Source of the DNA: Leptodactylus fallax
Lineage: Eukaryota > Chordata > Amphibia > Anura > Leptodactylidae
DNA: 64,000 nt
Direction: 5' to 3'
Assembly: GCA_947044405.1 (NCBI GenBank)
Contig: CAMRHE010000206.1
Location: forward strand, 310,001 to 374,000
A model generated the notes under the pieces. That model made no database searches. It was not told the DNA's origin and worked only from the letters and a program-made list of their open reading frames with translations. The translations under genes were made by a program, and so were the position numbers. Every line of letters begins with the position of its first letter. The first letter of the stretch is position 1. Positions 28 to 52,400 of this stretch are shown here, piece by piece.

Positions 28-522
28 AATGTTGCTTGTATGAAGGGAAGATCTACAGGACAAAAGAACTTATTTACAATACAACTGATGGCATTGGAGG
101 ATGCATTATAGCATACTGTATTGGTGGAAAGGTCAAAGGAACCAATGCACCTTGTACTTCAACTACAACTTCACCAACTGTTTTCAGCTTTTCTACTGCA
201 ACTCCTGTAACAACAACATCTACAGAGACACCCACAACAGGAACAACAATAACAGGAACACCAACAACAGGCACACCCACAAAAGGAACACCAACAACAA
301 GCACACCCACAACAGGAACACCCACAACAGGAACACCAACAACAGAAACACCAACAACAGGAACACCAACAACAAAAACTCCCACAACAGGAACACCAAC
401 AACAGGAACATCCACAACAGGAACACCCACAACAGGAACACCAACAACAGAAACAACAGGAACAAGAACAACAACAACAGGAACAAGTACAACAACCATC
501 ACCACCAGCAGCACCATTCCAG
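28..522 (+). CDS. Mucin gene 1 exon: end of D3 region plus short PTS
   Basis: The exon follows a pyrimidine-rich tract ending in CAG (26-27) and ends at a phase-1 GTAACA donor. It begins with CCLYEGKIYRTKELIYNTTD and continues GIGGCIIAYC. These match the IYNTTDG-x-G-x-C motif just after D3 in MUC2-type mucins. The rest is a Thr/Pro-rich stretch dominated by GTPTT and related pentamers, a target for mucin-type O-glycosylation. Confidence 0.9.
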
Positions 523-3500
523 GTAACACTGCTTTCCATCTAGGTATTATTAAGATTTCCTCAGTAAATTCAAATGATTGACTCTAGGCCTTCAGTACAA
601 TTTTTAAATGTAGTTTATTACCTAGTTACCTCTTTGTCTTGATGTATGATATATGGTAGCATATGTTGTTGAGTGGGATTTAGTTCAAGCATTTGAGGCA
701 AAGTGTCTAAAGACAAAAAGCTAATTGCTTATTACTGCATGACAATTGCTAGACAATAAGTTCAATGAAATTTATCAGGAGGATGAAAATATTTAATTTT
801 TTAAGTTTAGATTTTTTTAGTTTTTTTGTTCAGTGCAAGAGAGTGTAAATACATTATAAAAGAGATTTAATGAAATACAGTAGGTTTAGCATTTACAGTA
901 TAAGAAAAAGAAATAGACACAAGGTGTAAGATGCCAAATCCAACTGTTGAAACATTAGTTCAAGGACATGTACAGTTCAAGTCATGGAAAGTGTAGAGAA
1001 CACATGAAAATGGTATCTAGACATTAGTGAGGAAATGACATTTTAAGGACACATTTCACTTTTAACTAGTTCTGAGAGCAATTCTTATTGTTTATATTAT
1101 TATTATTATTTATATAGCACAATTAATTCCATGGTGCTTTACATTTGAGGGTTTACATACGGTACACAAGATATACAAAACAGATAATACTAACAGTGAC
1201 CAACTGGCACAGTGGGATAGAGGGCCCTGCCCACAAGGGCTTACAATCTATGAGGGAAGAGGGATAGAGACAGAAGGTGGGGGTAGAGGCTGTTCAGGTG
1301 GTGGTGTGGTGACAGTAGTGTTATTGGGGGCTGTAGGCCTTCCTGAATAGGTGAGTCTTCAGGGCCTTCTTGAAGCTTGTTACTTTGGGGGATAGTCTTA
1401 TGTGTCTTGGTAATGAGTTCCAGAGTATGGGGGATGCACGAGAGAAGTCTTGGAGACGATTGTGTGAAGAGCAGATAAGAGCAGAGCGGAGTAGAAAGTC
1501 TTTGGAGGCTCGGAGATTACATGTGGGCAGTTAGCAGGAGATTAGATCGGAGATATATTGAGGGGACAGGTAGTGGATGGCTTTGTATGTCAGCGTTAGT
1601 AATTTGAACTCTATTCGCTGGGCAACTGGTAGCCAGTGAAGGGATTGGCAGAGGGGAGCGGCCGATGAAGAACGGGGGAAGAGCTGTACTAAGCGAGCAG
1701 CACAGTTTAAGGTGGACTAGAGGGGAGTGAGAGTGTTAGCTGGGAGGCCATGGAGAAGGGTGTTACAGTAGTCAAGGCGGGAGATTATGAGGGCGTGGAC
1801 TAGCATCTTTGTAGTTTCATGGGTGAGGAAGGAGCGGAGCACAATGTTTTAGAAGGAAAAATTGCATAAGAAATTTGATTTCTAATTTTAAATGATATGA
1901 AACAACCTGTAATACATGTGATTCAATAATAATAATAATAATAAAAACATAACAATAACAGCATACACTTAATTATCACAAAAGTACCTATTAAAATTTT
2001 GTGAAACAAAGGAAAAACAATTTTTGATTAAATAAGTATTATTTTACTGTTTTCATTCTAGTATGTGCAGTAACTCCAGAGGACGCAGGATGCAATTGGT
2101 CACAATGGTTTGATGTGGATTACCCTACTTATGGAAGTGACAAGGGCGATTTTGAAACATTTGAAAATATAAGGAAAAAAGGATTTACAATCTGTGATGC
2201 ACCTCAAAATGTAGAATGCAGAGCAAAGGCATATCCTGATGATGCACTAGAAGACTTAGGTCAACAGGTGACATGCAGCAAATATGTGGGTCTGATATGC
2301 CTTAACAGCCAACAACCACAAAGAATATGTTACAATTACCAGATTCGAGTGCAATGTTGTTCTCCAAAAGTTGATTGCAGTAAAATTGAAACAACAACTT
2401 CAACTCCTTCATCTACTTCTATTTCCACTACAACAAGTGTAACAACAAAAACTTCTAGCACAACTAGAACACCCTATTCATCTACCTCTGTTTCTCCAAC
2501 ATCAAGTAGGACAACAACCACTTCTACATCAACCTCTACCTCAACTAAAACATCACCAACATCTATCTCTGTTTCTCCAACACCCACAATTACAACCACT
2601 TCTACTAAATCAACATCAACAAAGACAACTCCAATATCAACTTCTATTTCTACATCAAAGAGTACAAGTGGAACAACAGTTACAACTACACCACCCACTC
2701 ACTCATCCACTAGTGTTTCAACTACTTCTTCAACAACGTGTCCATATGCATATACCATGAAATGCGCCTTGTCATCATGGATGGTAAATACACCAAGCAG
2801 TTCTAGCAAAGAAGGAAAAAATAATCCATCTGGAAGTCACTCCACTGAAGACAATAGTAAAGCCTCAAAAAGCAACCCTAACGGAAAAGATACTAACTCT
2901 GGAAATAAAGGTTCTGATGAAAAAGTTATCGAACCCAAGAAAGGATATTTCAATGAAGTGCTGAAAAAGATTTTCAAAGGCTCCTCAAGTGAAGAAGACC
3001 AAAGCCCTAACTCTGGAATAAAAGATTCTAGGCAACACAGCAAGACCAGTGAAGAAAATTTCAATGAATTAATCAAAAAATTTTTCAAAGGCTCCTCCAG
3101 TGAAGAAGACCAAAGCCGTACCTCTGGAACAAAAGATTCTAAGGAGCAAGTCAGCAGCAAAGATAAAGGATTTTTATCTGAAATTGTTAATCAAGTTTTC
3201 AAACAATTTTCACTTGAGGAAAAAGACATACCTTCAGACACATTCTCTGGTGATAATATTGATAGTTCAGAAATACTAAAAATTGCTAGTTATAAAATAT
3301 GTACATCAATGCAAATGGGAAGTGACATTGAATGTAAAGTCCGATCAGACCTGAACAGCAAAGAAAAGAATTCTGTATCACAATGTAGCAGGGACAAAGC
3401 AATTGCTTGCCTACTTGCTCAACAGGCAGGAATTGATGCCCCAGGATGTAGCTACTATACAATAAGAGTGCAATGCTGTTACACAGTCTGTGGTACAACA

Positions 3501-6500
3501 ACACCACCTACGGTATCCATAATTGAAACATCAACCACCTCTGTCATCACACCTACAACAACTAAAACAATTACTACTACTATAAGTGAAAGAACAACCA
3601 CTTCCATTCCATCTACGACCACAAGCAAGAAAACTTCAACCCCTCCTTCCACTACATCAACAAGCGCAACATCAACCACTTCACCTCCAACCTCAACAAA
3701 GATACCACCCACATCAACTTCAACCCCTCCTACATCAACAAGCCCAACACCAACCACTTCACCTCCAACCTCAACAAAGATGCCACCCACATCTACCACA
3801 GTTTCTACAACATCCACAAGTGGAACAACCACCACTGGCTCAAGCACAACTTCATCCACTACAACAACTAGAACACCATTTTCATCTACCTCTGTCTCTC
3901 CAACAACCACAATTACATCCACTTCTACTATATCTACAACATCAACAAAGACAACTCCAACATCAACTTCTATTTCGACATCAAAAAGTACAAGTGGAAC
4001 GACAGTTACAACTACACCACCCACTCACTCATCCACTAGTATTTCAACTACTTCATCAACAACGTGTCCATATGCATATACCATGAAATGCGCTTTGTCA
4101 GCATGGATGGTAAATACACCAAGTAGTTCTAGCAAAGAAGGAAAAAATAATCCATCTGGAAGTCACTCCACTGAAGACAATAGTAAAGCCTCAAAAAGCA
4201 ACCCTAACGGAAAAGATACTAACTCTGGAAATAAAGATTCTGATGAAAAAGTTATCGAACCCAAGAAAGGATATTTCAATGAAGTGCTGAAAAAGATTTT
4301 CAAAGGCTCCTCAAGTGAAGAAGACCAAAGCCCTAACTCTGGAATAAAAGATTCTAGGCAACACAGCAAGACCAGTGAAGAAAATTTTAATGAATTAATC
4401 AAAAAATTTTTCAAAGGCTCCTCCAGTGAAGAAGACCAAAGCCGTACCTCTGGAACAAAAGATTCTAAGGAGCAAGTCAGCAGCAAAGATAAAGGATTTT
4501 TAACTGAAATTGTTAATCAAGTTTTCAAACAATTTTCACTTGAGGAAAAAGAAATACCTTCAGACATATTCTCTGGTGATAATATTGATAGTTCAGAAAT
4601 ACTAAAAATTGCTAGTTATAAAATATGTACATCAATGCAAATGGGCAGTGACATTGAATGTAAAGTACAATCAGACCTGAGCAGCAAAGAAAAGAATTCT
4701 GTATCACAATGTAGCAGGGACAAAGCAATTGCTTGCCTACTTGCTCAACAGGCAGGAATTGATGCCCCAGGATGTAGCTACTATACAATAAGAGTGCAAT
4801 GCTGTTACACAGTCTGTGGTACAACAACACCACCTACGGTATCCATAATTAAAACATCAACCACCTCTGTCATCACACCTACAACAAATAAAATAATTAC
4901 TACTACTATAAGTGAAAGAACAACCACTTCCATTCCATCTACGACCACAAGCAAGAAAACTTCAACCCCTCCTTCTACTACATCAACAAGCACAACATCA
5001 ACCACTTCACCTCCAACCTCAACAAAGATACCACCCACATCAACTTCAACCCCTCCTACATCAACAAGCCCAACATCAACCACTTCACCTCCAACCTCAA
5101 CAAAGATGCCACCCACATCTACCACAGTTTCTACAACATCCACAAGTGGAACAACCACCACTGGCTCAAGCACAACAACTTCATCCACTACAACAACTAG
5201 AACACCATTTTCATCTACCTCTGTCTCTCCAACATCCACAATTCCATCCACTTCTACTATATCTACAACATCAACAAAGACAACTCCAACATCAACTTCT
5301 ATTTCGACATCAAAAAGTACAAGTGGAACAACAGTTACAACTACACCACCCACTCACTCATCCACTAGTGTTTCAACTACTTCATCAACAACGTGTCCAT
5401 ATGCATATACCATGAAATGCGCTTTGTCAGCATGGATGGTAAATACATCAAGTAGTTCTAGCAAAGAAGGAAAAAATAATCCATCTGGAAGTCACTCCAC
5501 TGAAGACTATAGGAAAGCCTCAAAAAGCAACCCTAACGGAAAAGATACTAACTCTGGAAATAAAGATTCTGATGAAAAAGTTATCGAACCCAAGAAAGGA
5601 TATTTCAATGAAGTGCTGAAAAAGATTTTCAAAGGCTCCTCAAGTGAAGAAGACCAAAGCCTTAACTCTGGAATAAAAGATTCTAGGCAACACAGCAAGA
5701 CCAGTGAAGAAAATTTCAATGAATTAATCAAAAAATTTTTCAAAGGCTCCTCCAGTGAAGAAGACCAAAGCCGTACCTCTGGAACAAAAGATTCTAAGGA
5801 GCAAATCAGCAGCAAAGATAAAGGATTTTTATCTGAAATTGTTAATCAAGTTTTTAAACAATTTTCACTTGAGGAAAAAGAAATACCTTCAGACACATTC
5901 TCTGGTGATAATATTGATAGTTCAGAAATACTAAAAATTGCTAGTTATAAAATATGTACATCAATGCAAATGGGAAGTGACATTGAATGTAAAGTCCGAT
6001 CAGACCTGAACAGCAAAGAAAAGAATTCTGTATCACAATGTAGCAGGGACAAAGCAATTGCTTGCCTACTTGCTCAACAGGCAGGAATTGATGCCCCAGG
6101 ATGTAGCTACTATACAATAAGAGTGCAATGCTGTTACACAGTCTGTGGTACAACAACACCACCTACGGTATCCATAATTAAAACATCAACCACCTCTGTC
6201 ATCACACCTACAACAAATAAAATAATTACTACTACTATAAGTGAAAGAACAACCACTTCCATTCCATCTACGACCACAAGCAAGAAAACTTCAACCCCTC
6301 CTTCCACTACATCAACAAGCGCAACATCAACCACTTCACCTCCAACCTCAACAAAGGTACCACCCACATCAACTTCAACCCCTCCTACATCAACAAGCCC
6401 AACATCAACCACTTCACCTCCAACCTCAACAAAGATGCCACCCACATCTACCACAGTTTCTACAACATCCACAAGTGGAACAACCACCACTGGCTCAAGC

Positions 6501-9500
6501 ACAACAACTTCATCCACTACAACAACTAGAACACCATTTTCATCTACCTCTGTCTCTCCAACATCCACAATTCCATCCACTTCTACTATATCTACAACAT
6601 CAACAAAGACAACTCCAACATCAACTTCTATTTCGACATCAAAAAGTACAAGTGGAACAACAGTTACAACTACACCACCCACTCACTCATCCACTAGTGT
6701 TTCAACTACTTCATCAACAACGTGTCCATATGCATATACCATGAAATGCGTTTTGTCAGCATGGATAGTAAATACACCAAGTAGTTCTAGCAAAGAAGGA
6801 AAAAATAATCCATCTGGAAGTCACTCCACTGAAGACAATAGTAAAGCCTCAAAAAGCAACCCTAACGGAAAATATACTAACTCTGGAAATAAAGATTCTG
6901 ATGAAAAAGTTATTGAACCCAAGAAAGGATATTTCAATGAAGTGCTGAAAAAGATTTTCAAAGGCTCCTCAAGTGAAGAAGACCAAAGCCCTAACTCTGG
7001 AATAAAAGATTCTAGGCAACACAGCAAGACCAGTGAAGAAAATTTCAATGAATTAATCAAAAAATTTTTCAAAGGCTCCTCCAGTGAAGAAGACCAAAGC
7101 CGTAATTCTGGAACAAAAGATTCTAAGGAGCAAGTCAGCAGCAAAGATAAAGGATTTTTAACTGAAATTGTTAATCAAGTTTTTAAACAATTTTCACTTG
7201 AGGAAAAAGAAATACCTTCAGACATATTCTCTGGTGATAATATTGATAGTTCAGAAATACTAAAAATTGCTAGTTATAAAATATGTACATCAATGCAAAT
7301 GGGAAGTGACATTGAATGTAAAGTCCGATCAGACCTGAACAGCAAAGAAAAGAATTCTGTATCACAATGTAGCAGGGACAAAGCAATTGCTTGCCTACTT
7401 GCTCAACAGGCAGGAATTGATGCCCCAGGATGTAGCTACTATACAATAAGTGTGCAATGCTGTTATACAGTCTGTGGTACAACAACACCACCTACGGTAT
7501 CCATAATTGAAACATCAACCACCTCTATCATCACACCTACAACATCTAAAATAATTACTACTACTATAAGTGAAAGAACAACCACTTCCATTCTATCTAC
7601 GACCACAAGCAATAAAACTTCAACCCCTCCTTCCACTACATCAACAAGCGCAACATCAACCACTTCACCTCCAACCTCAACAAAGATACCACCCACATCA
7701 ACTTCAACCCCTCCTACATCAACAAGCCCAACATCAACCACTTCACCTCCAACCTCAACAAAGATGCCACCCACATCTACCACAGTTTCTACAACATCCA
7801 CAAGTGGAACAACCACCACTGGCTCAAGCACAACAACTTCATCCACTACAACAACTAGAACACCATTTTCATCTACCTCTGTCTCTCCAACATCCACAAT
7901 TCCATCCACTTCTACTATATCTACAACATCAACAAAGACAACTCCAACATCAACTTCTATTTCGACATCAAAAAGTACAAGTGGAACAACAGTTACAACT
8001 ACACCACCCACTCACTCATCCACTAGTGTTTCAACTACTTCATCAACAACGTGTCCATATGCATATACCATGAAATGCGCTTTGTCAGCATGGATGGTAA
8101 ATACACCAAGTAGTTCTAGCAAAGAAGGAAAAAAATAATCCATATGGAAGTCACTCCACTGAAGACAATAGTAAAGCCTCAAAAAGCAACCCTAGTGGAA
8201 AAGATGCTAACTCTGGAAATAAAGATTCTGATGAAAAAGTTATCGAACCCAAGAAAGGATATTTCAATGAAGTGCTGAAAAAGATTTTCAAAGGCTCCTC
8301 AAGTGAAGAAGACCAAAGCCCTAACTCTGGAATAAAAGATTCTAGGCAACACAGCAAGACCAGTGAAGAAAATTTCAATGAATTAATCAAAAAATTTTTC
8401 AAAGGCTCCCCCAGTGAAAAAGACCAAAGCCGTACCTCTGGAACAAAAGATTCTAAGGAGCAAATCAGCAGCAAAGATAAAGGATTTTTAACTGAAATTG
8501 TTAATCAAGTTTTTAAACAATTTTCACTTGAGGAAAAAGACATACCTTCAGACACATTCTCTGGTGATAATATTGATAGTTCAGAAATACTAAAAATTGC
8601 TAGTTATAAAATATGTACATCAATGCAAATGGGCAGTGACATTGAATGTAAAGTACGATCAGACCTGAGCAGCAAAGAAAAGAATTCTGTATCACAATGT
8701 AGGAGGGACAAAGCAATTGCTTGCCTACTTGCTCAACAGGCAGGAATTGATGCCCCAGGATGTAGCTACTATACAATAAGAGTGCAATGCTGTTACACAG
8801 TCTGTGGTACAACAACACCACCTACGGTATCCATAATTAAAACATCAACCACCTCTATAATCACACCTACAACAACTAAAATAATTACTACTACTATAAG
8901 TGAAAGAACAACCACCTCCATTCCATCTACGACCACAAGTATGAAAACTTCAACCACTCCTATATCAACAAGCGCAACATCAACCACGTCACCTCCAACC
9001 TCAACAAAAATACCACCCACATCAACTTCAACTCCTCCTACATCAACAAGCCCAACATCAACCACTTCACCTCCAACCTCAACAAAAATACCACCCACAT
9101 CAACTTCAACTCCTCCTACATCAAGCCCAACATCAACCACTTCACCTCCAACCTCAACAAAGATGCCACCCACATCTACCACAGTTTCTACAACATCCAC
9201 AACTACAACCACTTCCATTCCATCTACAATCACTTCCATTCCATCTACGACCACAAGCACGAAAAACTTCAACCTCTCCTTCCACTACATCTACAAGTGC
9301 AACATCAACCACTTCACCTCCAACCTCAACAAAGATGCCACCCACATCTACCACAGTTTCTACAACATCCACAAGTGGAACAACCACCACTGGCTCAAGC
9401 ACAACAACCTCATCCACTACAACAACTAGAACACCATATTCATCTACCTCTGTCTCCACAACTTCCACAATTACATCCACATCTACTAAATCTACAACAT

Positions 9501-12500
9501 CAACAAAGACAACTCCAACATCAACTTCTATTTCTACATCAAAGCGTACAAGTAGAACAACAGTTACAACTACACCACCCACTCACTCACCCACTAGTGT
9601 TTCAACTACTTCTTCAACAACTTGTCCATATGCATATACCATGAAATGCGCTTTATCATCATGGATGGTAAATACACCAAGTAGTTCTAGCAAAGAAGGA
9701 AAAAATAATCCATCTGGAAGTCACTCCACTGAAGACAATAGGAAAGCCTCAAAAAGCAACCCTAACGGAAAAGATACTAACTCTGGAAATAAAGATTCTG
9801 ATGAAAAAGTTATCGAACCCAAGAAAGGATATTTCAATGAAGTGCTGAAAAAGATTTTCAAAGGCTCCTCAAGTGAAGAAGACCAAAGCCCTAACTCTGG
9901 AATAAAAGATTCTAGGCAACACAGCAAGACCAGTGAAGAAAATTTCAATGAATTAATCAAAAAATTTTTCAAAGGCTCCTCCAGTGAAGAAGACCAAAGC
10001 CGTACCTCTGGAACAAAAGATTCTAAGGAGCAAGTCAGCAGCAAAGATAAAGGATTTTTAACTGAAATTGTTAATCAAGTTTTCAAACAATTTTCACTTG
10101 AGGAAAAAGAAATACCTTCAGACATATTCTCTGGTGATAATATTGATAGTTCAGTAATACTAAAAATTGCTAGTTATAAAATATGTACATCAATGCAAAT
10201 GGGAAGTGACATTGAATGTAAAGTACGATCAGACCTGAGCAGCAAAGAAAAGAATTCTGTATCACAATGTAGCAGGGACAAAGCAATTGCTTGCCTACTT
10301 GCTCAACAGGCAGGAATTGATGCCCCAGGATGTAGCTACTATACAATAAGAGTGCAATGCTGTTACACAGTCTGTGGTACAACAACACCACCTACGGCAT
10401 CCACAACCTCTAGTACTTCGCCACACACAAGTGTTACAACCACTTCACCAACAATTTCAACATCAACTACTTCTAGGTCAACCACATCAACATCAACACC
10501 ATTCTCTTCATCATCAACCCCACATTCTACTACAAGATCAACATCTCAATCTACCACATTAACATCCCTTACGTCAAGCACTTCATATACAATTACATCC
10601 ACTTCTGGAACAACCACTTCTCCTATATCTACTACATCTTTTACTACATCATCAACTTCATCTACTTCTCCAACTACTTCTTTGTCTACAAGTATTTCAA
10701 CTTCAAGTAGCACAAAGACTACATCAGAAGTTAGCTCAACTCATTCAGAAATAACATCACCTCCATCTACGACTCGCCCTACAATCAGCACTACACCAAT
10801 ATGTTTCTGTCAAGTAAATAAATCACTTTTTTCACCTGGTAAGTAAATTATGAATTTTTTGGTAAACAATAGGTTTAATGCCATTTGCTCCATGTGAGAG
10901 CTGTTTCTTATCTTCACTAGTAGGCCATAGTTTCAGCCATGATAGTATTTCTTACTAACAGGTATAAACAGGAAATGTGTCCATAGCTATGGTAGACTCA
11001 TGAACTAAATATAAAAATTTACTTTTCATATTCATATTTTGACTCAAATCTGGAGGTTAAAACAGATTACAGATTTAGAAAATTATTTTGTAATGCACAT
11101 CAGCTTTTGCTTTAGGATGATCAAGGAGTATACTTTTTCTATTTGGAAATGGCTTTACTGATGTAATAAAAGGAAACCTAGGTTAGAAGATGGCAAACAG
11201 TACTTTCAAAAAGTTTAACCATGTATACTTTTTAAACTATATTATATTATACAGTATATTCATCTTAAATTATATAGTTTAGCAATATTAATTTGTTATT
11301 AATGTTTGCAAAAATTACATTTTAATTAGGTGATACAATCTATAAAGAGGCTGATAAGAATAGCTGTGAATACTCTGCAAAATGTAGCAGTGCCTGCACA
11401 GTGGAAAGATTCGGTGGAGATTGCTCTTCCACCACAACTGGTGGTCCAACAACAACTGTGACAACTGGATCAACACTCACAACAACTCCCATAACCAGAT
11501 CAACAGTCACGGTATCCTCAACAACATACTCAGAAATTTCAACATCCACATCTTTGTCAACTCTTTCAAGTACCTCTCCATTTATATCAACATCCACCAA
11601 TATTTCAACAACAGCTTTATCAACTTCTACCAAAAGTAAGTGCAATGATATTTTACTATGCACTGTACAAAAGTGTGTTAAGAATAAAAATAGATACAGT
11701 ATATACAATATATTAGCATGGTTGCGGTAGTATAAATATTCCTTAACACTTAAGTCACTACGTTATATCTGATTTCTATGCACAGAGAACACTAAATCCA
11801 ATTCTTTCCTTTACAGGTTGTGGTGAATGTGTTTGTCTAATGCCAAAATGTGGATCTGGCTACAAAGTAGTTTCTTTCCTACCACCTGGTGCCTGTTGTG
11901 TTAACATTACATGTGGTATGTATATTTTTATTGTCCTACTATATTTAAGTATGAACTATTAAGAATGGAATTATATTAATACAATTTACAGTATTTTACT
12001 AAACTTATTGGAAAAATTGATCGCTTAGCAAAATGGCACCAAGTTGCAAAATATATTATACCGTCTCTGACTTTGTTGAAAAGTTGTCTGGATTTCCATT
12101 TAAATACTTATTATTACAGATCTACTCAATTTTTGGTAGTCATTTAATGTTAGTAGATTTTATGTTTAATAGCCAGGCAACTCTTTTGTAAGTACTGTGC
12201 ACAAAAACATGGGAGACAATTTTAAATGTTTTCAGAATCATTTTCTTTTAGAAACAACATGAATATTTATCCTAATATATAAGACACCTGGTAAACTACA
12301 AACCTTTTTTTTCTGTTTTTTTAGTGCCTGACTCTGTCTGTGTATATGGAAATGATGTATACCAGGTAAAATATTATGAAATCTGCACGCTTTTGTAATA
12401 GCGTATAGTATATAAAAGTTTATATGTATATTTTTAGGCTAAACACTAAAATAGATAAATTAAATACAAAACATTCCAATTATTTCTCTGTCCTTACCTG

Positions 12501-15500
12501 AATTTGGTTAAGAACTCCAATTTCTAGTTGTATTTCTCCCAGTTCAATACAATAATGTACCATGCTACTGTGGCCGCACACAGACACATATAGCCAGATA
12601 TACATTCATATAGACAGATATCACTTTGTGACAAAATACTTTAAAGTCGGGTTGTCTTGAAAAGCTATCCCATAGCTGGACATACTGTATATAGTTAAGA
12701 TGAAAAGTAAGAAAGTATACATCTATATGTTGATCTATTAATTGCTTCTCTTGGCTGCATTGAAAAATGATAGTTAATATACAGCATTTTTTATAATTTT
12801 GGTGCAATTTGCACCAATTTACTGTAGTCAACTCATAAATGCATGTGCTATTGCTAAATTTGCACAATTATGCCAATATAATAATAATGTATTAACTATA
12901 ATGTTATTTTTTTCTTCAGAGAGGATCTATCATTCCCCAGCCTGCAGAAGCATGCCAAACCTGTGAATGTTCCTACAACATGGACAGTGATTCAGGATTC
13001 TATGCTATAAAATGCGCCCCAATTGCTTGTGACACTAAATGCAGTCTTGTAAGAATATATTTAATTATCTTTTTAGTTTACATGTCATTGTACTTTATAT
13101 TAATTATAGCTTTATTCACACTTACTTGCATAGTTATGTCTAATTGAGTGTCATATGAGCATGATATACAGAGTCACAGGATATATCCTTTGAAAGTTAA
13201 ATGTATTATGATAGGATTATTATAGCTACTTCTTTTTATATTTTATTATTTATTATTATTGTCTAGATGTCATCCTTGGCATCCTTGGGTTTGAATTGAA
13301 AGTCCTCAGTTAGTGGCTGGGGGTCCAAACCTTGGAACTAGAGATGAACAAATCGATTCTGCAGAAGTGGAATTCGATCCAAATTTTAGGAAATCTTCGA
13401 TTCTCCACGACTCTGGATTTCCTGATGCTTCGTGGAAACAAATATTTAGTAAGGACCTTTGTGACATCAGACGGTCACATGATGTTCTCTAGTGATGTGA
13501 TTGGGTAGGCGTGTCTTTGCTTGTTAGCAGATCCATCCACATGAATAAAAGTTGTCCGTGCTGAAGAGAGAGAGAGAGAGAAATATGACTGCAATATCCA
13601 AGGGCTTTTGGCATTTTGCTGCCCACCCCGGCTCTCTGCAGCCCGGAAATAGCTGTTTATTCACCGCGAAGTAATTAGGATCGAAGCGAATTTGTTGGAA
13701 CTTTGAATCGAACTGCCGAATCGAACTTTTGAGAAATTCGCTCATCTCTACTTGGAACCATGGCTAAATTCAAATGCGGGATGGGGGACCCTCGTTTTCA
13801 TCATCATTGGTTGGTCCTAGTGTGTCAACCCCCATCGCTCAGACACCTATCACCTACCCTATGCATATCTTTATGTGTTTTATATTGTTTTTTACCTATT
13901 TCCTTCAGATTTAGCATATATAAACAGCCATTCAATACACAATCTGCTACTATAAAGTTAAAGTCTGAACAATTAATATACAAATCTAAGTATTTATTAA
14001 CCATTAACCTGTTCTTTCTTGCACCATAGGGTTACGAATACAGAAAGAAGAGCGGACAGTGCTGTGGAGAATGTGTGTCAAAACAATGTGCTATGAAGGG
14101 GGATAACAATACCGAAGTTTTCATTGAGGTAACCAACAATAATCCTGCAATGATTTCTATGAAAACCTTTACAGCTTTCCATTATCATCTACAAATTGTC
14201 ACAGTGACATTGCTGCCAGATAGCATAATTGCACATGGATGTCAGCTCAGAGCCATATAAATGAATATTTTACACATTGTGTATCCTATTTTAGATAGTC
14301 AGGACCATATTTCAGTATTGAACTCTGTACAAAAGTCTGACTAAGCACCTATGAATGTTAAAATGGATGTTAGTGGAATACAGTGAGGATAGTAAGCCAA
14401 CATTTCACCTGTTAAAGACATTTTTTAATCCTAGTATGAATGACGTTAGAAACATACACATACGGGTAATAGCAAACCGGGCCTAAAACTGCACCCAAGC
14501 CTACTTTTCCATAGTCTTGTGCCCATTTTGCTTATAACATACATAAGGGTAATACAATCTCTTATATGTGCATCAGATTGGACAGACGTACCGCAATGCT
14601 GAAAATAAATGCAGCTACTACGAATGCAATGAAGAAAATGGACAGCCCATCCTTACCAGAGTGATGAAGGTTTGCCAAGAGTTAGACATCAACAGATGTG
14701 ACTTGGTAGGTTAAGAAAAAATATAATCAATTATTATTTCTTACTTTGAAAATTCTTTTTTAGTGAATTGTTATGCCATCCGATTAAAAGTTTAGAAAAA
14801 CTGTAAAAAAAATGAAGTATAGTAGATGGTTTATTTTATCATAAGCAATGACCCTAACTATAAGGGTTGTATTAGCTTCTGTAAAATGTTTTATCAAGCC
14901 ACAAAATTTCTTATAAGGTCATTCTCTTTTGGATTTTAGAGAACAGTAACATACGATGAAGATGGTTGCTGCAGAACATGTCATCCACTGCAAGTTCCAG
15001 GTATAAGTTCTTTTTGGATATTCATATAAACAAGTAACAATTAGAACATACAATTCTGTATAAGGAATACAGAAAAAAAATTATAAATCATTACTTTTAT
15101 TTTTAGAATATTTAGAAGGTCCTTCATTTCTTGTTGAATTGTAGGACATTTTTGCCCACAACCTAATTAAACTACTCCCACTTAAAGGGATTTTCCAGGA
15201 CTTTAATACTGATGAACTAAGTAATCCATTGGTGGGGGTCCAGATCCCATCATCCCCATTTATCATGTATTTGAAGAGGCCAAAGCAGCTCTGTTCAATT
15301 TAAGTGAATGAGATAGAAATACAAGTAATTCCAGGCACTGTAGACTGGGTGTAGGGATCAAACAGATGACTGGTTGGGGTGGGTGCTGAGAGTAGATATT
15401 GATGGCATATCCTATTTAAAGACCATAAATAATAAAGTACCTGAAAATTCCTTTAAGTTAAATAGTATATCATGGTGCACACATTGTAACATAAATACAG

Positions 15501-18500
15501 ACTACTGTATGTGGCTGCCAATGGGAAACCTTGCAAGATAATAGAGGACTTCTACATAGACACTGGATTATTCAATTAAGTATTCTGTGAAAATCAGCAG
15601 GTATAATTGAGGAACTTGCAAAAAAATGTATGTTTTTTTTTTTTTTTAACAGACTTAACTACAGCTATTCCAGGATCAGATCTCACAACAGCTATAAGCA
15701 AAGTTTCTTCAGGATCAGACCTCACAACCACCATTCCAGGATCTGATGTAAGCAAAGTGTCTCCAAGATTGCACTTGACTACAGTTCTTCCAGGATCAGA
15801 CCTAAGCACAGTTTCTTCAGGATCAGACCTCACAACAGCTATAAGCAAAGTTTCTTCAGGATTAGACATCACATCAGGCATTCCAGGATCTGATGTAAGC
15901 AAAGTGTCTCCAAGATTGGACTTGACTACAGTTCTTCCAGGATCAGACCTAAGCAAAGTCTCTTCAGGATCAGACCTCACAACAGCAATAAGCAAAGTTT
16001 CTTCAGGATTAGACATCACATCAGTCATTCCAGGATCTGATGTAAGCAAAGTATCCCCAGAATTAGACTTGACTACAATTCTTCCAGGATCAGACCTAAG
16101 CAAAGTCTCTTCAGGATCAGACCTCACAACAGCTATAAGCAAAGTTTCTTCAGGATTAGACGTCACATTAGCCATTCCAGGATCTGATGTAAGCAAAGTG
16201 TCTCCAAGATTGGACTTGACTACAGTTCTTCCAGGATCAGACCTAAGCAAAGTCTCTTCAGGATCAGACCTCACAACAGCAATAAGCAAAGTTTCTTCAG
16301 GATTAGACATCACATCAGGCATTCCAGGATCTGATGTAAGCAAAGTGTCTCCAGGTTTGGACTTGACTACAGTTCTTCCAGGATCAGACCTAAGCAAAGT
16401 CTCTTCAGGATCAGACCTCACAACAGCTATAAGCAAAGTTTCTTCAGGTTCAGACATCACATCAGGCATTCCAGGATCTGATGTAAGCATAGTATCCCCA
16501 GGATTAGACTTGACTACAATTCTTCCAGGATCAGATCTAAGCAAAGTCTCTTCAGGATCAGACCTCACAACAGCTATAAGCAAAGTTTCTTCAGGATTAG
16601 ACGTCACATCAGCCATTCCAGGATCTGATGTAAGCAAAGTGTCTCCAAGATTGGACTTGACTACAGTTCTTCCAGGATCAGACCTAAGCAAAGTCTCTTC
16701 AGGATCAGACCTCACAACAGCAATAAGCAAAGTTTCTTCAGGATTAGACATCACATCAGGCATTCCAGGATCTGATGTAAGCAAAGTGTCTCCAGGTTTG
16801 GACTTGACTACAGTTCTTCCAGGATCAGACCTAAGCAAAGTCTCTTCAGGATCAGACCTCACAACAGCTATAAGCAAAGTTTCTTCAGGTTCAGACATCA
16901 CATCAGGCATTCCAGGATCTGATGTAAGCATAGTATCCCCAGGATTAGACTTGACTACAATTCTTCCAGGATCAGATCTAAGCAAAGTCTCTTCAGGATC
17001 AGACCTCACAACAGCTATAAGCAAAGTTTCTTCAGGATTAGACGTCACATCAGCCATTCCAGGATCTGATGTAAGCAAAGTGTCTCCAAGATTGGACTTG
17101 ACTACAGTTCTTCCAGGATCAGACCTAAGCAAAGTCTCTTCAGGATCAGACCTCACAACAGCAATAAGCAAAGTTTCTTCAGGATTAGACATCACATCAG
17201 GCATTCCAGGATCTGATGTAAGCAAAGTGTCTCCAGGTTTGGACTTGACTACAGTTCTTCCAGGATCAGATCTAAGCAAAGTCTCTTCAGGATCAGACCT
17301 CACAACAGCTATAAGCAAAGTTTCTTCAGGATTAGACGTCACATCAGCCATTCCAGGATCTGATGTAAGCAAAGTGTCTCCAAGATTGGACTTGACTACA
17401 GTTCTTCCAGGATCAGACCTAAGCAAAGTCTCTTCAGGATCAGACCTCACAACAGCAATAAGCAAAGTTTCTTCAGGATTAGACATCACATCAGGCATTC
17501 CAGGATCTGATGTAAGCAAAGTGTCTCCAGGTTTGGACTTGACTACAGTTCTTCCAGGATCAGACCTAAGCAAAGTCTCTTCAGGATCAGACCTCACAAC
17601 AGCTATAAGCAAAGTTTCTTCAGGTTCAGACATCACATCAGGCATTCCAGGATCTGATGTAAGCAAAGTGTCTCCAAGATTGGACTTGACTACAGTTATT
17701 CCAGGATCAGACTTAAGCAAAGTCTCTTCAGGATCAGAGCTCACAACAGCTATAAGCAAAGTTTCTTCAGGATCAGACCTCACTACCGCCATTCCAGGAT
17801 ATGATGTAAGCAGAGTCTCTCCAGGATTTGACCTAAGTAAGGCTACTTCAGGATCAACTGGATCAACTGTTAACAATGATAGTTCAGGAACCTCAGTCAC
17901 CAACGTCCCAAGAGTTCCACCGGACTGTGGTGTTCGTACAAATATTACCATAGTACAAGAAGATGATTGTGTGGCAACAGTAGAACTCAAATACTGTGGT
18001 GGTCCATGCATGGGAACCTCTGTGTAAGTATCTGTCAATAATACATTTCTTTAAATACATTAAATAATAGTCAATAATTGAATTTTTCATTTAATATTTA
18101 ATTGGACTGGTAACAATTTAAAATGGCTTGTACAATATTAGTGACAAATGTATAATTTATATCTAGCTATAATCTATATATAAAGTTAAGCAATGTTTCA
18201 TATCCTTTCATCGACTAAGCTACAATTTAAACTTTAGCCTTTCTCACTCAAAAATTGCAGATGTTGACCGAGAACTTTTTTTTTATTTTTGTGAGTAATT
18301 TTTTGTTTTGTTTATTTCTCAGGTACTCTATGTCTACCAGGAGTATGGAACACACATGTTCATGCTGTACAGAACTTGAAGTAGGCAAGAAGAGTGTTCA
18401 GCTTCTCTGCGCCAACAGACAACGCAAGATCTACACTTACACAGATGTTCTTAGATGCGGCTGTGTTGGTGCCTTCTGTACACCCAACAATAATAATCAG

Positions 18501-32012: not shown

Positions 32013-32590
32013 CCACAGCAGCCCCTGCACACAGTATTACACAGTGTTATGGCCCGCAGCGGCCCCTGCACACTGTATTATGCCTCTCAGCGGCCCCTGC
32101 ACACGGTATTATGCTCCATAGTGGCCCCTGCTCACGGTATTATGCCCCGCATTGGCCACTGCACATGGTATTATGTTCCACAGCAACTCCTGCACACAGT
32201 TTTATGCCCCATATTGGCCCCTGCACACGGTATTATGCTCCATATTGGCCCCTGCATACGGTATTATGCTCCACAGTGGCCCCAGCACACGGTATTATGC
32301 TCCATAGTGGCCCCTGCACTGGTATTATGCTCTATAGTGGCCCTTGCACTGGTATTATGCTCCATAGTGGCCCCTGCACTGGTATTATCCTCCATAGTGG
32401 CCCTTGCACTGGTATTATGCTCCATAGTGGCCCCTGCACTTGTATTATGCTCCATAGTGACCCCAGCACCCGATGTTATGCTCTATAGTGGCCCCTGCAC
32501 TTGTATTATGCTCCAGAGTGGCCCCTGCACAGGGTATTATGCTCTACAGTGGTCCCTGCACAGGGTATTATGCCCCATAGTGGCCGACCC
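32013..32590. repeat. Minisatellite, unit about 31 bp
   Basis: Around 20 tandem units of the type TATTATGCTCCATAGTGGCC followed by CCTGCACNNGG. Unit lengths vary between about 26 and 31 bp, and it lies inside the hAT element. Confidence 0.9.
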
Positions 32591-46435: not shown

Positions 46436-49400
46436 AATTATTATTATTATTATTATTAATATTAATAATAATAACAATAATTAACTTAAATGCACCAAAT
46501 GGAAAAGATTTACATACATAATACAGATAACAAGTACAATAAACTAACTTGGTAACCAACTGGTACAATGGGAAAGAGGATCCTGTCTGTGACGGCTTAC
46601 AATTTATAAGAGAAGGGACATGGTAAAAATAGGTAAGGGCTGAAGCTATTCAGATGGTACTGACTGTTATGGCACCAAGGTTATTAAAGAGTGTAATCTT
46701 TCCAGAAGAAGTTGGTCTGTAGGTTTCTCTTGAAGGATGTGTTGTGAAGGATGTATCGCTGTAGCGAGTACCAGAGTACAGGGCAGTGGGTGACAACCTT
46801 TTTTGTATGGTGAGCTGATTAATTTATTTATTTATTTTAATCAAATGTGAAGTAATGTAATGCAATAATTGTACGTTTATCGACCTCTATATACAAGCAA
46901 CCAATTAATTCGTTGACTAATCTTATATTTCAGTGTTTTCTATGAACAGAGGACTCAGAGTGGGCTCAGACATTTACACAGCCCTATGTTTATGTTGAAT
47001 AAATTCATACAAGCCTTTTCAATCTTGTTCAAATGAACGAATGTCCACTTTAGCTTTTTCTGCAGCCATTTTATACTTTTACACTTGCTTAAAGGTATAC
47101 AACAATTACTGTTCTCTGAAAAGGCTAGCTCATGACCAGACAAAATGTCACACGACATGTACCGCCTTTCCTGGAGCAACACAGCTAAGGCTGCAGTCAC
47201 ACTAGCGTTCGGGGGATTCCGTCCCCCATTCCGCTTAACCCTCCTGCAAGCAGGGCCTTCCTCTCCACCAATTTTGGACAGAAACACAGCGGACCCCATT
47301 ATAGCATATGGGGTCTGTGGGTTTCTACGGGTAATTGCTTTTTAAGCAGATAGGGTTTACGTTTTTCAGAAAAGAAGAACAGAAACCTGAACGCTAGTGT
47401 GAACATAGTATAAGAGAGCCCTGTGCTAGGTAGCTATACCTGAAAAGCTGACTTTGGCTCAGGTGCCTGAGGTTGCATAAGAGAAATCTTGGAGATCATT
47501 CTGTAAAGAGCAGAGGGAAGAAGGAGGTCTTGTGAAGGTTGGAGATTATGTATGGAGAGGCAGTAGAAGATTAGGTCAGTGATGTATATAGAAAAAAAGT
47601 TGGGGATGGTCTTGTATGTCAGCGTTAACATGTTAAACTCTATTCATTGGGCAATGGCTAGCCAGTGAGGGGATTGGCAGATGGGAGACACACATGAGAA
47701 ACAAGAGATTAAACAGAATCTGGAGGTTGGACAGTGGAAAGATTGCGGAGCTGGTAGTTTGGCTTACTGCTTTCTCCATTACTGGCACTATGGCCACCTA
47801 TTAATGTCAGAAATACTGACCCCCCTAGTATCGATGTTGGAACCAATGCACCTGGAATGACATATCATCCGTTACATTATTTTTTTTATGTTGAATTCTG
47901 AAAAAAAAAAATCTTGTATGTTGCTCTGTATCAAGGTTCCCTACTGAATTACTGCTTAGGATATATAATACAACTACAGTAAGAGAGTGCGGCATGGTAA
48001 GAAGTTGGATCTCACACATACATTATTAAAACAATAAAACTGTTCTTTTTTTTTTTTTTTACAGTTCTTGGAAATCAGTGTTATCAGACTGACAAATCTA
48101 TGGAGCAACTGAAAAACTTTAGAAGCACCGAGAATGACTTTGGTATGGTATTGTACATTTGTTAGAGTGTTCCCATGCTAACAAAACAATACCCTGACCC
48201 ACTATAAAATCAAACTAAAATACACACTGACTACTTGGATCCCTGTCTATAGTACAAGATTATTGAGGCATTTTATGGTTGATTCATATCAGCTAAAAAT
48301 GTTTACTCAGCTGTTTTTGGAATTTCCATAGAAAATATTGTAACCCTTTCCATTCTGCACCACACTCTTACATGGTGAAGAGCATATAGTTAATTCTCAG
48401 CACTGTAATAGTACATTGCATTGATGTAGCAAGCACAGGAGCTGTGCCTGCTAGATCGCTATCGGGTTCCAGACTCAGGTTCAAAGACTAGCTGCAGGAC
48501 TCTGAAAATACTCAGACTCTAGCAAATTAACCACTCATATACCATGATCAATATCGATTACGACATCTTGGTGTTTGAGCGGAGCTCATACATTCACTCC
48601 CTTATCTTCATTCCTTGTGAGATTGCAGGATGCTGAGGGGTTGCCATGGCACAGCTGCCCTGCAAAGATTTGTAATAGGCTTTGGCCTAATAGACATAGA
48701 GAGCAATGTAAAATATACTTCAGTACAGAAGAGATTGAAGCATATTCTACAGGGGATCTAGTGATCCCAGTTTAAAGTCCCTTTGTGGGACAGTAAAAAA
48801 CAGAAGTGTAAAAAGTTTATTAAAAAATGTATAAAATTTAATAAATAATGAAAGTTCAAAAAACCTCTTTCCCAATACAAAAATAAATAATGTAAAAAAA
48901 TAAAATAACTCAATAACTCAATAAAAAACTTTAGGCATCACTGTGTGCATATAAGTTATAATTTATCCAAATAAATATATATCGCATTGAGCAAATTAAC
49001 GTGGTTTGGTCATCTTGCCTCCCCCTTCCCTCCCCCAACAAAAAGTGATCAAAAGGTTGTACTCTGCAGAAAATTGTACCAATAAAAATTACAACTTGCC
49101 CCACAAAAAAGAACCCACCATACAGAATACAGACATTTACGTGCACAGTACATCAGAACAGTATACTTGTCATGAATGTAGTCTCACACTACATTTGTTA
49201 AACTGTGTCTTTAGTAAGTTAAAAAAAAAATTTTTTATAACATGCTTTTTTTTGTTTTTGCAGTGAAGATCAATAATGACTATGTCTGCAGTACGTGGGG
49301 TAATGGATATATTAATACATTTGATGGGTATTTTTATAATGCCAGAGGAAACTGCACATACATTTTTACCCAACAATGTGATGTCCTGGATGAAGAATTT

Positions 49401-52400
49401 AAAATACTTATTAAACGTAACACAGATAAAGATAACATTTGTATTGAACATATTTTCATGAAGTTTTTTCACATTTTAATTGAAACCAATGGAACGGGAA
49501 TATATGTCAATGAGAAACAGTAAGTATTAAGCTGCTGTAATTCTTACCATTTTAATATCTATCATTTTGTTCTTTTTTTTTATACATATTAACAGAATAT
49601 CAACATGGATTTTTGTTGGAGTCTCGGAGATTAAGGCTGTCACATTTCTGCTAGCCAAAATAATACCACCATTTAATGCTTAACTAATACTACCATACAG
49701 AGTTTGTGTGACATTACTTGTAATAACAAGAGAATTTAAAGAGGACCTTCCACCACCTTGCCCAAATCCAGTCCTTTCCATCCTTTAAAAGGCGCTGCCC
49801 CACTGATGCTCTGAAGAAGTAGGAATTTTGTCTCTGACATCGTTTCTGAACAATCATTGCTGTTAGTTTTAATGCCTTATATGCTAAGTAGGCTCTACTG
49901 CCAAATGGGTGGTTTCATGCAAGAGAATGCAAGTGGGTGTGATGGTGGGTGCTGACACTGTCCATCTCTTATTGGTGTTTTTAATCACATCCCCTTACCT
50001 TTTTTGTCCCAAGACCACCCATCTGATAATGGACAGCCTAAGGAGCCATTTACACAGTGGAAAGTGAAGAGGCATTACTTTTTGCGGGCCACCAGCTTCC
50101 CGAGATAGGATGCCGATGCTGGGTATCGGCATTCAGTCGCGGCTTTCGAAAGGGCCTAATCAGCAGGGAGTCTCGAGCCGTCGGCTCTGTGGCATGATCG
50201 GGCAGGATGCTTATTTTTTAGGATTTCTCTGCCCCAAAATCAGCATCAAATTCCTACGTGTGAATGGCCCCTTTAGGTTCAAATGGCTGAATTTGGAGCT
50301 GAATCTGAGGTGACTTGCGACACAAAATGAACTCCAAATTCTTCCCGAAATCTGTCTCCCATTCATTTCATGATTTTTTCAGCTAACAGAAAACATAAGG
50401 GTAAGTAAACACAAGTTAATCCACCTTAAAAAAAAGTCTCCCAACTCTCCCATTCAATTCAATTGAGAGATATTTTCCTCCAGCTGATTTTTTTCAGGCA
50501 GGTTCTGCTTTGCAAAGCCTATTGAAATGAATAGGAGGCAGAATAAAACTCAAAAAAAAAAACACTAGCTGTTTTTTCCGCCTCCCATGAAAAATCAACT
50601 AGAAGAAAAAACCTGCTACCGACTCCCATTGAAATTAATGGGAGAGTTGGGAGACATTTTTTGAGGTTTCTGTGTGAACATACCCTAAGCGTCATACTCG
50701 ATTTTCAGCTGGACTTTGCCTGATAACTCCTTTTGAAGTGAATTGGAGCTTGTGCAAAATTAGTAAATTCTGCGGCAGATTCCGCAGCAGATTCTTCTGT
50801 GGAATTTGATCAAGCAGAAAAATTCAGCTTCAAATTCCTGACACTAAATTTTTCAACTTGTACAAATTCCGCCATGTAAACATACCCTTATTAGCATATG
50901 AGACACGGAAACCAGCTGCATTAATTGTTCCAGAACAGTGGGATTTAGAGAAAAATTTTGACTGCTCTGGAATGTAAAGAATTGGAGCTGGTGGACATGG
51001 TGAAAGGTCCTGTTTAAAGAAACTACCTTTAAAACAATTCCTTTAAAGAAGTTTTCCCATTACCAACATTTCTCCCTTATCTTTACTGGATAAAGGGAAA
51101 AATGTCTATTCTGATGGTAATACTGCTGGGACCCATAGCTTAACTTTCCCACTTCTATGAAACTGACAGAGATCCATGGATGGGGCATAAATGTATATAG
51201 TGGGAGAGCCCCTTTAACAAATCACAAATTATAGCAATAGCTATTTGTTTTTCGGATATTGACTTTCTACTTTGTCACAGCACAGTATTTTTGTAAAAAC
51301 TAGATGCTGGATTATTATATAATATAGTAAATGTTCTGGATTTATGGATAATTATAGACCATTAAAAATTTCCTGTGGTTCAGCCCTGACTTAAAAGGGA
51401 TCTGTCAGGGCAATCTGGGACACTAAATCACACACAGGCCCTTATGGACCAAGTTGACCTGTTAACACAATCTGTGGCCACATTAAAAATAATAAAGGTT
51501 TATGTTCACCTTTCAGCTGTACTACCTGTGTCTGCGCAGTTCTTCAGTGAAGTCAGGAGTATATCTTGGCTTCAGGGCGCATGCGCCAGACCTCATGCAC
51601 ATGCGCAGTAAAGCCAAGGTGTACGTCTCAGACTTCCCTGGAGAACAGAGAAGGCACTGAGAGCACCAGAGATGAGAATTATGAGACTCACCGGACTCAT
51701 CTTTAGGTAAGTATAAAGAATTTTTAATGCGGCCAAGGATTGCATTGTAAGGCAATTCGGGACACCACGTGTGGGTGGTTTCCTAAATCACACAAGGTTC
51801 CCTTTAAACAGAAAGTACATTAAAAAAGTATAATTTATAATGAAAAAAATATGATACATTACACTGATGCTTGTGTCTTTTTTCCATTTCCAACAGAGTT
51901 GATATTCCATATAAAAGCTCAAATTTGGACATTGATAAAGTAGGTCAGGATGTCGTGTTTTCCATTGGAGATATAAGAGTGCAATGGAACTTTTGGGATT
52001 CCCTCCAGGTAATACGAAGTAAAAGGATCCAACCACTTAAGACTGCAAGGATAAATACAGTTACAGGGATTTTCCAGGACTTATATGTTAATGACTGATC
52101 TTTAGGATAGATTGATATGTGATCTGTGGTGCTCTGACACCTGGGACCCCAAAAGATCAACTGATTGTGAGAGTCATGTCCTCTTTAGACAGGTCAGGGA
52201 TCATGGCTGTCTGACCCCCAACTATCACATATTGATTACCCATCCAAACAAATAAAAAGCTTTTTTCAATTGGTACCTCCATTGCTGAGATATAAGATTT
52301 TTTTTTCTGATATGCTAATGAACTGTTTGGTGCAACGAGGGTGTCACACATCAGTCATAGCAGGGAGGGGTGGAGAGATAGCTCTTTGGTGAAATAAAAG

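Follow-up and report, generated by a model that had tools for sequence, protein, structure and literature searches.

A CysD-like unit with an S-x-E-rich insert, repeated six times in the central exon of a gel-forming mucin gene of the frog Leptodactylus fallax

The window analysed here is a stretch of 64,000 nucleotides (nt) from the Leptodactylus fallax genome (assembly GCA_947044405.1, contig CAMRHE010000206.1, positions 310,001 to 374,000); positions are counted from its first letter, and features lie on the plus strand unless stated otherwise. On the plus strand lies the 3' portion of a large gene for a gel-forming mucin, and the subject of this report is a 251-residue unit, repeated six times in the giant central exon of that gene, which resembles the mucin domain CysD and carries an insert of about 145 residues. 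The exon at 28..522, recognised by a tblastn match and by its splice sites (acceptor before 28, donor at 523), contains a cysteine-rich stretch that appears to be the D3-region tail (CCLYEGKIYRTKELIYNTTDGIGGCIIAYC) and the first proline-, threonine- and serine-rich (PTS) region. The match, at 15-134, is to a Discoglossus mucin (P0004, residues 1154-1193; 52.5% over 40 aa, E 1.2e-8). The giant central exon (2062..10838; splice sites TTTTCATTCTAG/TATG and CCTG/GTAAGT), flanked on both sides by introns whose phase, judged by eye, is 1, comprises a first CysD (CysD1), a PTS region and the six units with their PTS spacers. CysD1 (2064..2378) is canonical, with ten cysteines and the motif WSQW (PF13330, E 8.1e-29). 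The third protein search supplied five mucins (P0001-P0005), two of them from frogs, namely the Discoglossus pictus mucin-5AC-like protein P0004 and the Ranitomeya variabilis mucin-5B-like protein P0005; the identity of CysD1 to these two (79% over 68 aa to Ranitomeya, 63% over 99 columns to Discoglossus CysD1) is the highest among the five. The D3 tail, CysD, PTS, VWC and cystine knot all lie within one gene, as in gel-forming mucins of the MUC5/MUC2 type. The profile scores of the VWC and cystine-knot parts are below the Pfam cutoffs, and tblastn matches them to mammalian mucins at E 8.7e-4 and 1.6e-8, respectively.

The six units start at 2739, 4065, 5394, 6723, 8052 and 9623, at spacings of 1326, 1329, 1329, 1329 and 1571 nt. 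Their DNA identity over the 15 pairs is 97.1-99.1%, which bears out the claim of an earlier note on this DNA that a 251-residue unit occurs six times over 2739..10375, with the reservation that unit 5 is frameshifted. Five units are 753 nt long, open, and encode 251 residues each; in unit 5 an A-run at about 8129 is one A longer, which brings the unit to 754 nt. Unit 1 (2739..3491) consists of an N part (2739-2783), the insert (2784-3218) and a C part (3219-3491). Bounds carried over from unit 1 place the insert at 4110-4544 in unit 2 (4065..4817), at 5439-5873 in unit 3 (5394..6146), at 6768-7202 in unit 4 (6723..7475), at 8097-8532 in unit 5 (8052..8805; 436 nt, the frame shifting inside the insert) and at 9668-10102 in unit 6 (9623..10375). 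The spacer between units 1 and 2 (3492..4064) encodes 191 aa with 82% S+T+P; those after units 2-4 encode 192 aa and are similar, and over the five spacers whose composition was taken S+T+P amounts to 81-82%. The spacer that follows unit 5 exceeds the others in length and has a frameshift: frame 0 stays open as far as 9426, frame 1 is free of stops from 8945 onward, and inspection by eye places an extra A near 9265. Since both frameshifts (8129 and about 9265) lie in A-runs, their flanks are open and the phase of the exon end fits, the simplest reading is that they are assembly errors; a broken allele is the alternative.

The analysis of the C-terminal half of unit 1 showed homology to CysD. 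This half matches Mucin2_WxxW (PF13330) at E 9.6e-7 and 29.9 bits, and the whole unit at E 9e-6 and 26.7 bits, both above the cutoff of 22.4. It also finds the CysD chains of MUC5AC and MUC5B in the PDB at E about 1e-4, and, when part of the adjacent CysD1 is included in the profile, at E values as low as 6.7e-15. Residues 2-28 alone gave no match in Pfam. In alignments, all ten cysteines of the unit have CysD counterparts in the canonical order, the two in the N half through a profile scan. Pairwise support for the N half is weak (the best of 14 CysD targets is equalled by 46 of 1000 shuffles); in the profile scan, none of 100 N-half shuffles reached 47.8 bits (mean 41.3, maximum 47.0; a smaller scan of 308 deletions). 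The Cys2-Cys3 spacing, counted by eye, is 179 in the unit against 34 in the adjacent CysD1. The earlier note had proposed by eye the homologous second half, the ten matching cysteines and a Cys2-Cys3 loop grown from about 34 to about 178 residues, and on each point the analysis agrees with it. Its designation of a new mucin domain fared less well: the CysD homology stood, but a wholly new domain did not, the unit appearing as a diverged second CysD (CysD2) with an insert-free relative in Discoglossus and with the WxxW motif lost (LSxW). Judged by its sequence, the unit is a derived CysD homologue and not a canonical member.

The bounds of the insert were obtained by scoring deletions of unit 1 against a profile of 14 CysDs, of which 13 were taken from P0001-P0004 by a regular expression, which missed further CysDs of P0001 and P0002 seen by tblastn, and one is the CysD1 of the window. 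The best of 756 deletions removes residues 16-160 (435 nt) and scores 47.8 bits, compared with 32.5 for the whole unit and 35.7 for residues 161-251 alone. Cuts moved by one or two residues still score 45.9, so the bounds are fixed only to within about that margin. Once residues 16-160 are removed, the Cys2-Cys3 spacing becomes 34 as in CysD1, and WMEKDIP aligns with WFDVDYP; by eye, position W+2 is Asp in all 14 compared CysDs and Glu in the joined unit, and position W+6 is Pro throughout.

The counts of composition, S-x-E motifs, helices and variation were made with by-eye bounds (residues 23-166), later replaced by 16-160; the ten S-x-E sites lie inside both. In unit 1 the insert has 26% S+T+P, 33% K+E+D and a net charge of 0. 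As its S+T+P content is just 26% against 81-82% in the spacers, it is not PTS, and the first estimate of an insert of about 150 residues that is not PTS holds, with a best-fitting length of 145. The insert contains an internal duplication of 37 codons (DNA 77% identical over 114 nt), and the helix within it also has a more distant third copy. The motif S-x-E occurs ten times against 3.1 expected, a count reached by none of 10000 shuffles and an enrichment of the kind sought in Fam20C substrates, while S-E, S-x2-E, S-x3-E and E-x-S are not enriched in the insert relative to shuffles. Eight of the ten sites are retained in all six units and two in five of the six. Two clusters of the form SSSEE lie in unit 1 at 2982..2996 (residues 82-86) and 3093..3107 (residues 119-123), the second of which reads SPSEK in unit 5. 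Elsewhere, S-x-E was counted in the N-terminal 95 residues of the Ranitomeya protein (3 against 1.3 expected, 548 of 5000 shuffles), in the unit core without the insert (2 against 0.46, 300 of 5000) and in the whole of P0005 (9 against 6.0, 37 of 300); P0001-P0004 as wholes are not enriched. According to PMC10255459, FAM20C, the kinase that acts on secreted phosphoproteins in the Golgi, recognises the sequence S-X-E/pS.

The insert also contains three stretches with a hydrophobic moment of at least 0.6, which none of 1000 shuffles reached, and they coincide with three helices predicted at low confidence by AlphaFold2 (AF2). In unit 1 these are helix 1 at 2946..2984 (residues 70-82, YFNEVLKKIFKGS; moment 0.75-0.76), helix 2 at 3045..3089 (residues 103-117; 0.78) and helix 3 at 3156..3212 (residues 140-158; 0.66). 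Across the six units, 1 of 47 helix positions is variable, compared with 13 of 97 in the linkers (post hoc Fisher test, p 0.036). The S-x-E enrichment, the amphipathic helices and the GT...AG bounds of the insert discussed below are new observations beyond the earlier note.

Frame 0 of the insert has no stop; of 5000 dinucleotide shuffles, 1 was likewise open (4 when the internal copy was left out). The period-3 power of 5.03 was reached by none of 1000 shuffles of the insert and by 8 of 722 other windows; without the internal copy it is 3.77, reached by 2 of 1000 shuffles and 28 of 722 windows. This is a weak test, the values of the coding CysD1 and of the joined core being reached by 66 and 152 of the 722 other windows. 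These signals are evidence that the insert is, or was, protein-coding. The insert together with the N part gave sub-cutoff matches only in Pfam (best E 0.028), and the insert itself (residues 23-166) had no PDB match at E <= 1. Its blastn and tblastn matches in the rest of the window are short or of low complexity (best blastn E 0.006 over 25 nt), therefore no local source was found. In a Pfam search with four joined copies, NusB rose above its cutoff (25.1 bits, unit 2 residues 119-156); no single stretch passes, a single unit does not list NusB, and the match is taken as summed chance.

The best match of the unit core among the 14 CysDs is Discoglossus CysD2 (P0004, from residue 1379; 32% over 103, E 1.2e-16, the next being 1.9e-11, both E values for a tiny set). 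Like the units, this domain is the second after D3, follows CysD1 and has a Cys9-Cys10 spacing of 4; unlike them, it has no insert, occurs in a single copy and keeps WTNW. No further CysD was seen in the remainder of the Discoglossus gene model, which may be truncated. Because the nearest CysD is this insert-free one, the units are read as a derived and amplified CysD2, and we infer that they arose from CysD2 by the insertion followed by sixfold amplification together with the spacer, an origin that rests on BLAST rank and gene position, not on the tree. The Ranitomeya model P0005 ends inside CysD1, its PTS seems by eye to be out of frame (Asn-Thr runs), and it is probably cut off before any such units. 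The insert-bearing CysD has so far been seen in one genome, where it appears to be a real, if unusual, variant of the domain.

We consider it somewhat more likely than not that the central exon of this frog gel-forming mucin encodes a translated CysD2 insert that serves as a calcium-tuned, reversible cross-linking node. Into the second CysD after D3, at the loop that joins the W motif to the first helix, about 145 in-frame coding residues would have been inserted; the domain would then have diverged and been amplified to six copies along with the PTS spacer. The insert would be present in the mature mRNA, translated and kept as an extra module, both of its ends held by the CysD, which is presumed to retain its disulfide-locked fold. 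A Fam20C-type kinase of the Golgi may phosphorylate the S-x-E serines, including those of the SSSEE clusters, and the clusters of phosphoserine with Glu/Asp would then bind calcium, assisting the packing of the mucin into granules and the linking of chains. The three short amphipathic helices may pair with helices of other units. Six such nodes, spaced by stiff glycosylated PTS rods, would form a multivalent, reversible gel tuned by calcium, packed at the high calcium of the granule and loosened after secretion.

Parts of this scheme have likenesses in known systems. SSSEE clusters, for one, also occur in caseins. The units share with the CysD (PF13330) of MUC2, MUC5AC and MUC5B the ten cysteines in order, the sequence of the C half and the place between PTS regions, and they differ from it in the roughly 145 residues inserted after the W motif and ahead of the first helix, in the loss of the first Trp and in the Cys9-Cys10 spacing of 4. 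In MUC2 CysD1, according to PMC11912381, a longer C1365-C1379 loop docks on the mucin bead, so that there too a loop of the CysD scaffold has been altered for new contacts; that loop is four residues longer than in MUC5AC and is a different one, unlike the roughly 145 residues placed before the first helix in the unit. For MUC2 CysD2, PMC11933400 cites weak homotypic dimers that are further fixed by TGM3. Caseins and osteopontin, phosphorylated by Fam20C (PMC10255459), are dense in S-x-E and rich in charge like the insert; unlike them, the insert is embedded in a mucin domain, no sequence homology to them was found and its phosphorylation is putative. In the parts seen of the literature matches listed, neither a CysD with such an insert nor S-x-E clusters in a gel-forming mucin are described, which is weak evidence of absence.

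Several observations weigh against the cross-linking node. The WxxW motif is replaced by LSSW or LSAW, the first Trp being Leu in all six units and the second being kept. Foldseek and VIA-align found no CysD in the AF2 model of the unit, whose mean predicted local distance difference test score (pLDDT) is 41, with block means of 58-73 solely at residues 191-250. This model was built from the five in-frame units aligned with part of CysD1; as including the whole of P0004 gave spurious pairings in the insert, sequences of the window alone were used. When CysD1 was modelled as a control from an alignment of comparably little depth, the MUC5B CysD was found at E 4.1e-4, with a template modelling (TM) score of just 0.42. 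A tree of 19 CysD rows left the units on a very long branch with their placement not resolved. In the protein searches for insert-bearing relatives, which covered only proteins of 0.55-1.75 times the query length, 900 and 287 candidates shared words with the query but did not reach E <= 1, and none of eight pattern matches in viral contigs was confirmed. Without the internal copy, S-x-E drops to 6 against 1.8 expected (16 of 10000 shuffles), and at a laxer moment of 0.5 three helices are reached by 112 of 1000 shuffles. The giant exon carries the two frameshifts described above, and elsewhere 131 of 4332 frame-windows (3%) are open as well, transposon open reading frames included. Purifying selection on the six inserts is not clearly evident, with 14 nonsynonymous and 4 synonymous codons (10 and 4 in the core) and a ratio of nonsynonymous to synonymous variation (pN/pS) of 0.70 in the insert and 0.46 in the core (five units, first bounds). 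Finally, the bounds 16-160, derived from homology, coincide with GT...AG in all six units.

This coincidence would be expected if the insert were an exitron, in which protein-coding sequence within an exon doubles as an intron that is spliced out in some transcripts (GTAAAT...TTGAG, phase 0, 435 nt). Its removal would give a CysD of ordinary length (WMEKDIP, Cys2-Cys3 spacing of 34) and retention the phospho-helix form, and the mucin could change its type of cross-linking by tissue or season. The length is divisible by three, the stretch is in-frame and stop-free in five of the six units, and the extra A of unit 5 lies inside it and would be harmless if spliced out. In a crude score, the boundary donor ATGGTAAAT ranks second among the GTs of the giant exon and is the best GT in five of the six units; its value of 2.7 is close to that of the donor at 523 (2.9) and well below that of the exon-end donor (6.6), and in unit 4 the donor is damaged (ATAGTAAAT). 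The acceptor is poor, with G at -3 and a score of -7.2 that is equalled or beaten by 310 of 520 AGs in the exon and by all five scored acceptors of the gene (-4.3 to 8.9). The match to GT...AG may moreover be luck, since bounds slid by one or two residues lose just 1.9 bits. We judge an exitron to be unlikely. It is more doubtful still that the six phosphorylatable helix modules are exitrons whose splicing or retention makes each node either a CysD of the usual kind or a phospho-crosslinker that resembles casein and is tuned by calcium; if true, neither a mucin cross-link under the control of phosphorylation nor alternative splicing inside a CysD would, to our knowledge, have been described before. 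A plain intron, always removed, would leave a mature mucin with six CysD-like domains of ordinary length and a coding look that is accidental or left over. The same GT...AG bounds, the nonsynonymous changes that are not clearly depressed in the insert and the open frame-windows elsewhere would agree with it, but the weak acceptor, the S-x-E enrichment and the three helices at a moment of 0.6 do not, and the coding signals (the stop-free frame and the period-3 power) make a constitutive intron unlikely; we regard it as very improbable.

The insert may also have been read correctly as protein and wrongly as a cross-linker. As a disordered filler it would be a tolerated expansion of low constraint, enlarged by the 37-codon duplication, whose function is limited to length and charge; the duplication and the nearly neutral pattern of substitution suit this, while the specific spacing of S-x-E and the lower variation of the helices than of the linkers speak against it, and we give it little credence. 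The amphipathic helices may resemble frog skin peptides. A membrane-active, host-defence module, in which cationic helices, with an acidic stretch after each of the first two, behave as antimicrobial peptides of the skin do, either held in the gel or cut out, would account for the shape and charge of the helices and for the one dibasic KK that precedes helix 1. By eye, helices 2 and 3 have no dibasic site directly before them, the insert of unit 1 has a net charge of 0, there is no PDB match, CysD is the only Pfam family above cutoff for a single unit, and the S-x-E pattern is left unexplained. We regard this module as highly improbable.

Other features of the locus concern the rest of the mucin gene and its surroundings. 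Between the last PTS and the VWC domains (11330-14140), the expected VWD4-C8-TIL4 assembly was not found by tblastn: with the five mucins at E <= 0.01, and rows with at least 40% S+T+P left out, there was no VWD or C8 row in 11424-14024. This is either a D4-less MUC5-like mucin or an assembly gap. Further downstream, 15653-18023 holds 14.7 copies of a 147-nt (49-aa) unit rich in S/T/D/G, stop-free and following a T-run acceptor (TTTTTTTTTTTTTAACAG); the exon terminates in the first half of the cystine knot (CGVRTNITIVQEDDC...CGGPCMGTS), the second half of which starts at 18323, and the minus strand is likewise open across it. This region appears to be another giant exon of repeats in the mucin gene described here. 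Also on the plus strand, 49263-61387 contains N-terminal exon parts of a second gel-forming mucin, matched by the five mucins at 26-65% identity; the names VWD1, first C8 and first TIL for these matches are our assumption from their positions. The two gel-forming mucins on one strand form a mucin gene cluster. Among the exon-like matches of the second mucin, on the minus strand at 58392-59459, sits a 356-aa frame of a Tc1/Sleeping Beauty-type transposase (HTH_SB, HTH_Tnp_Tc3_2, DDE_3), and 32061-32585 is a tandem array of 17 copies of a 31-bp unit.

CysDs are believed to contribute to the non-covalent contacts that mucins make with one another, and their fold is called a scaffold for new interactions (PMC11912381, PMC11933400). 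A CysD carrying a whole extra module, six times over, would be a natural example of a large gain in interaction and would offer a ready system for the study of CysD function. A phosphorylated mucin node, if true, would tie the packing of mucus to the secretory-pathway kinase of milk proteins, and the inserted module may perhaps give mucus a new type of junction.

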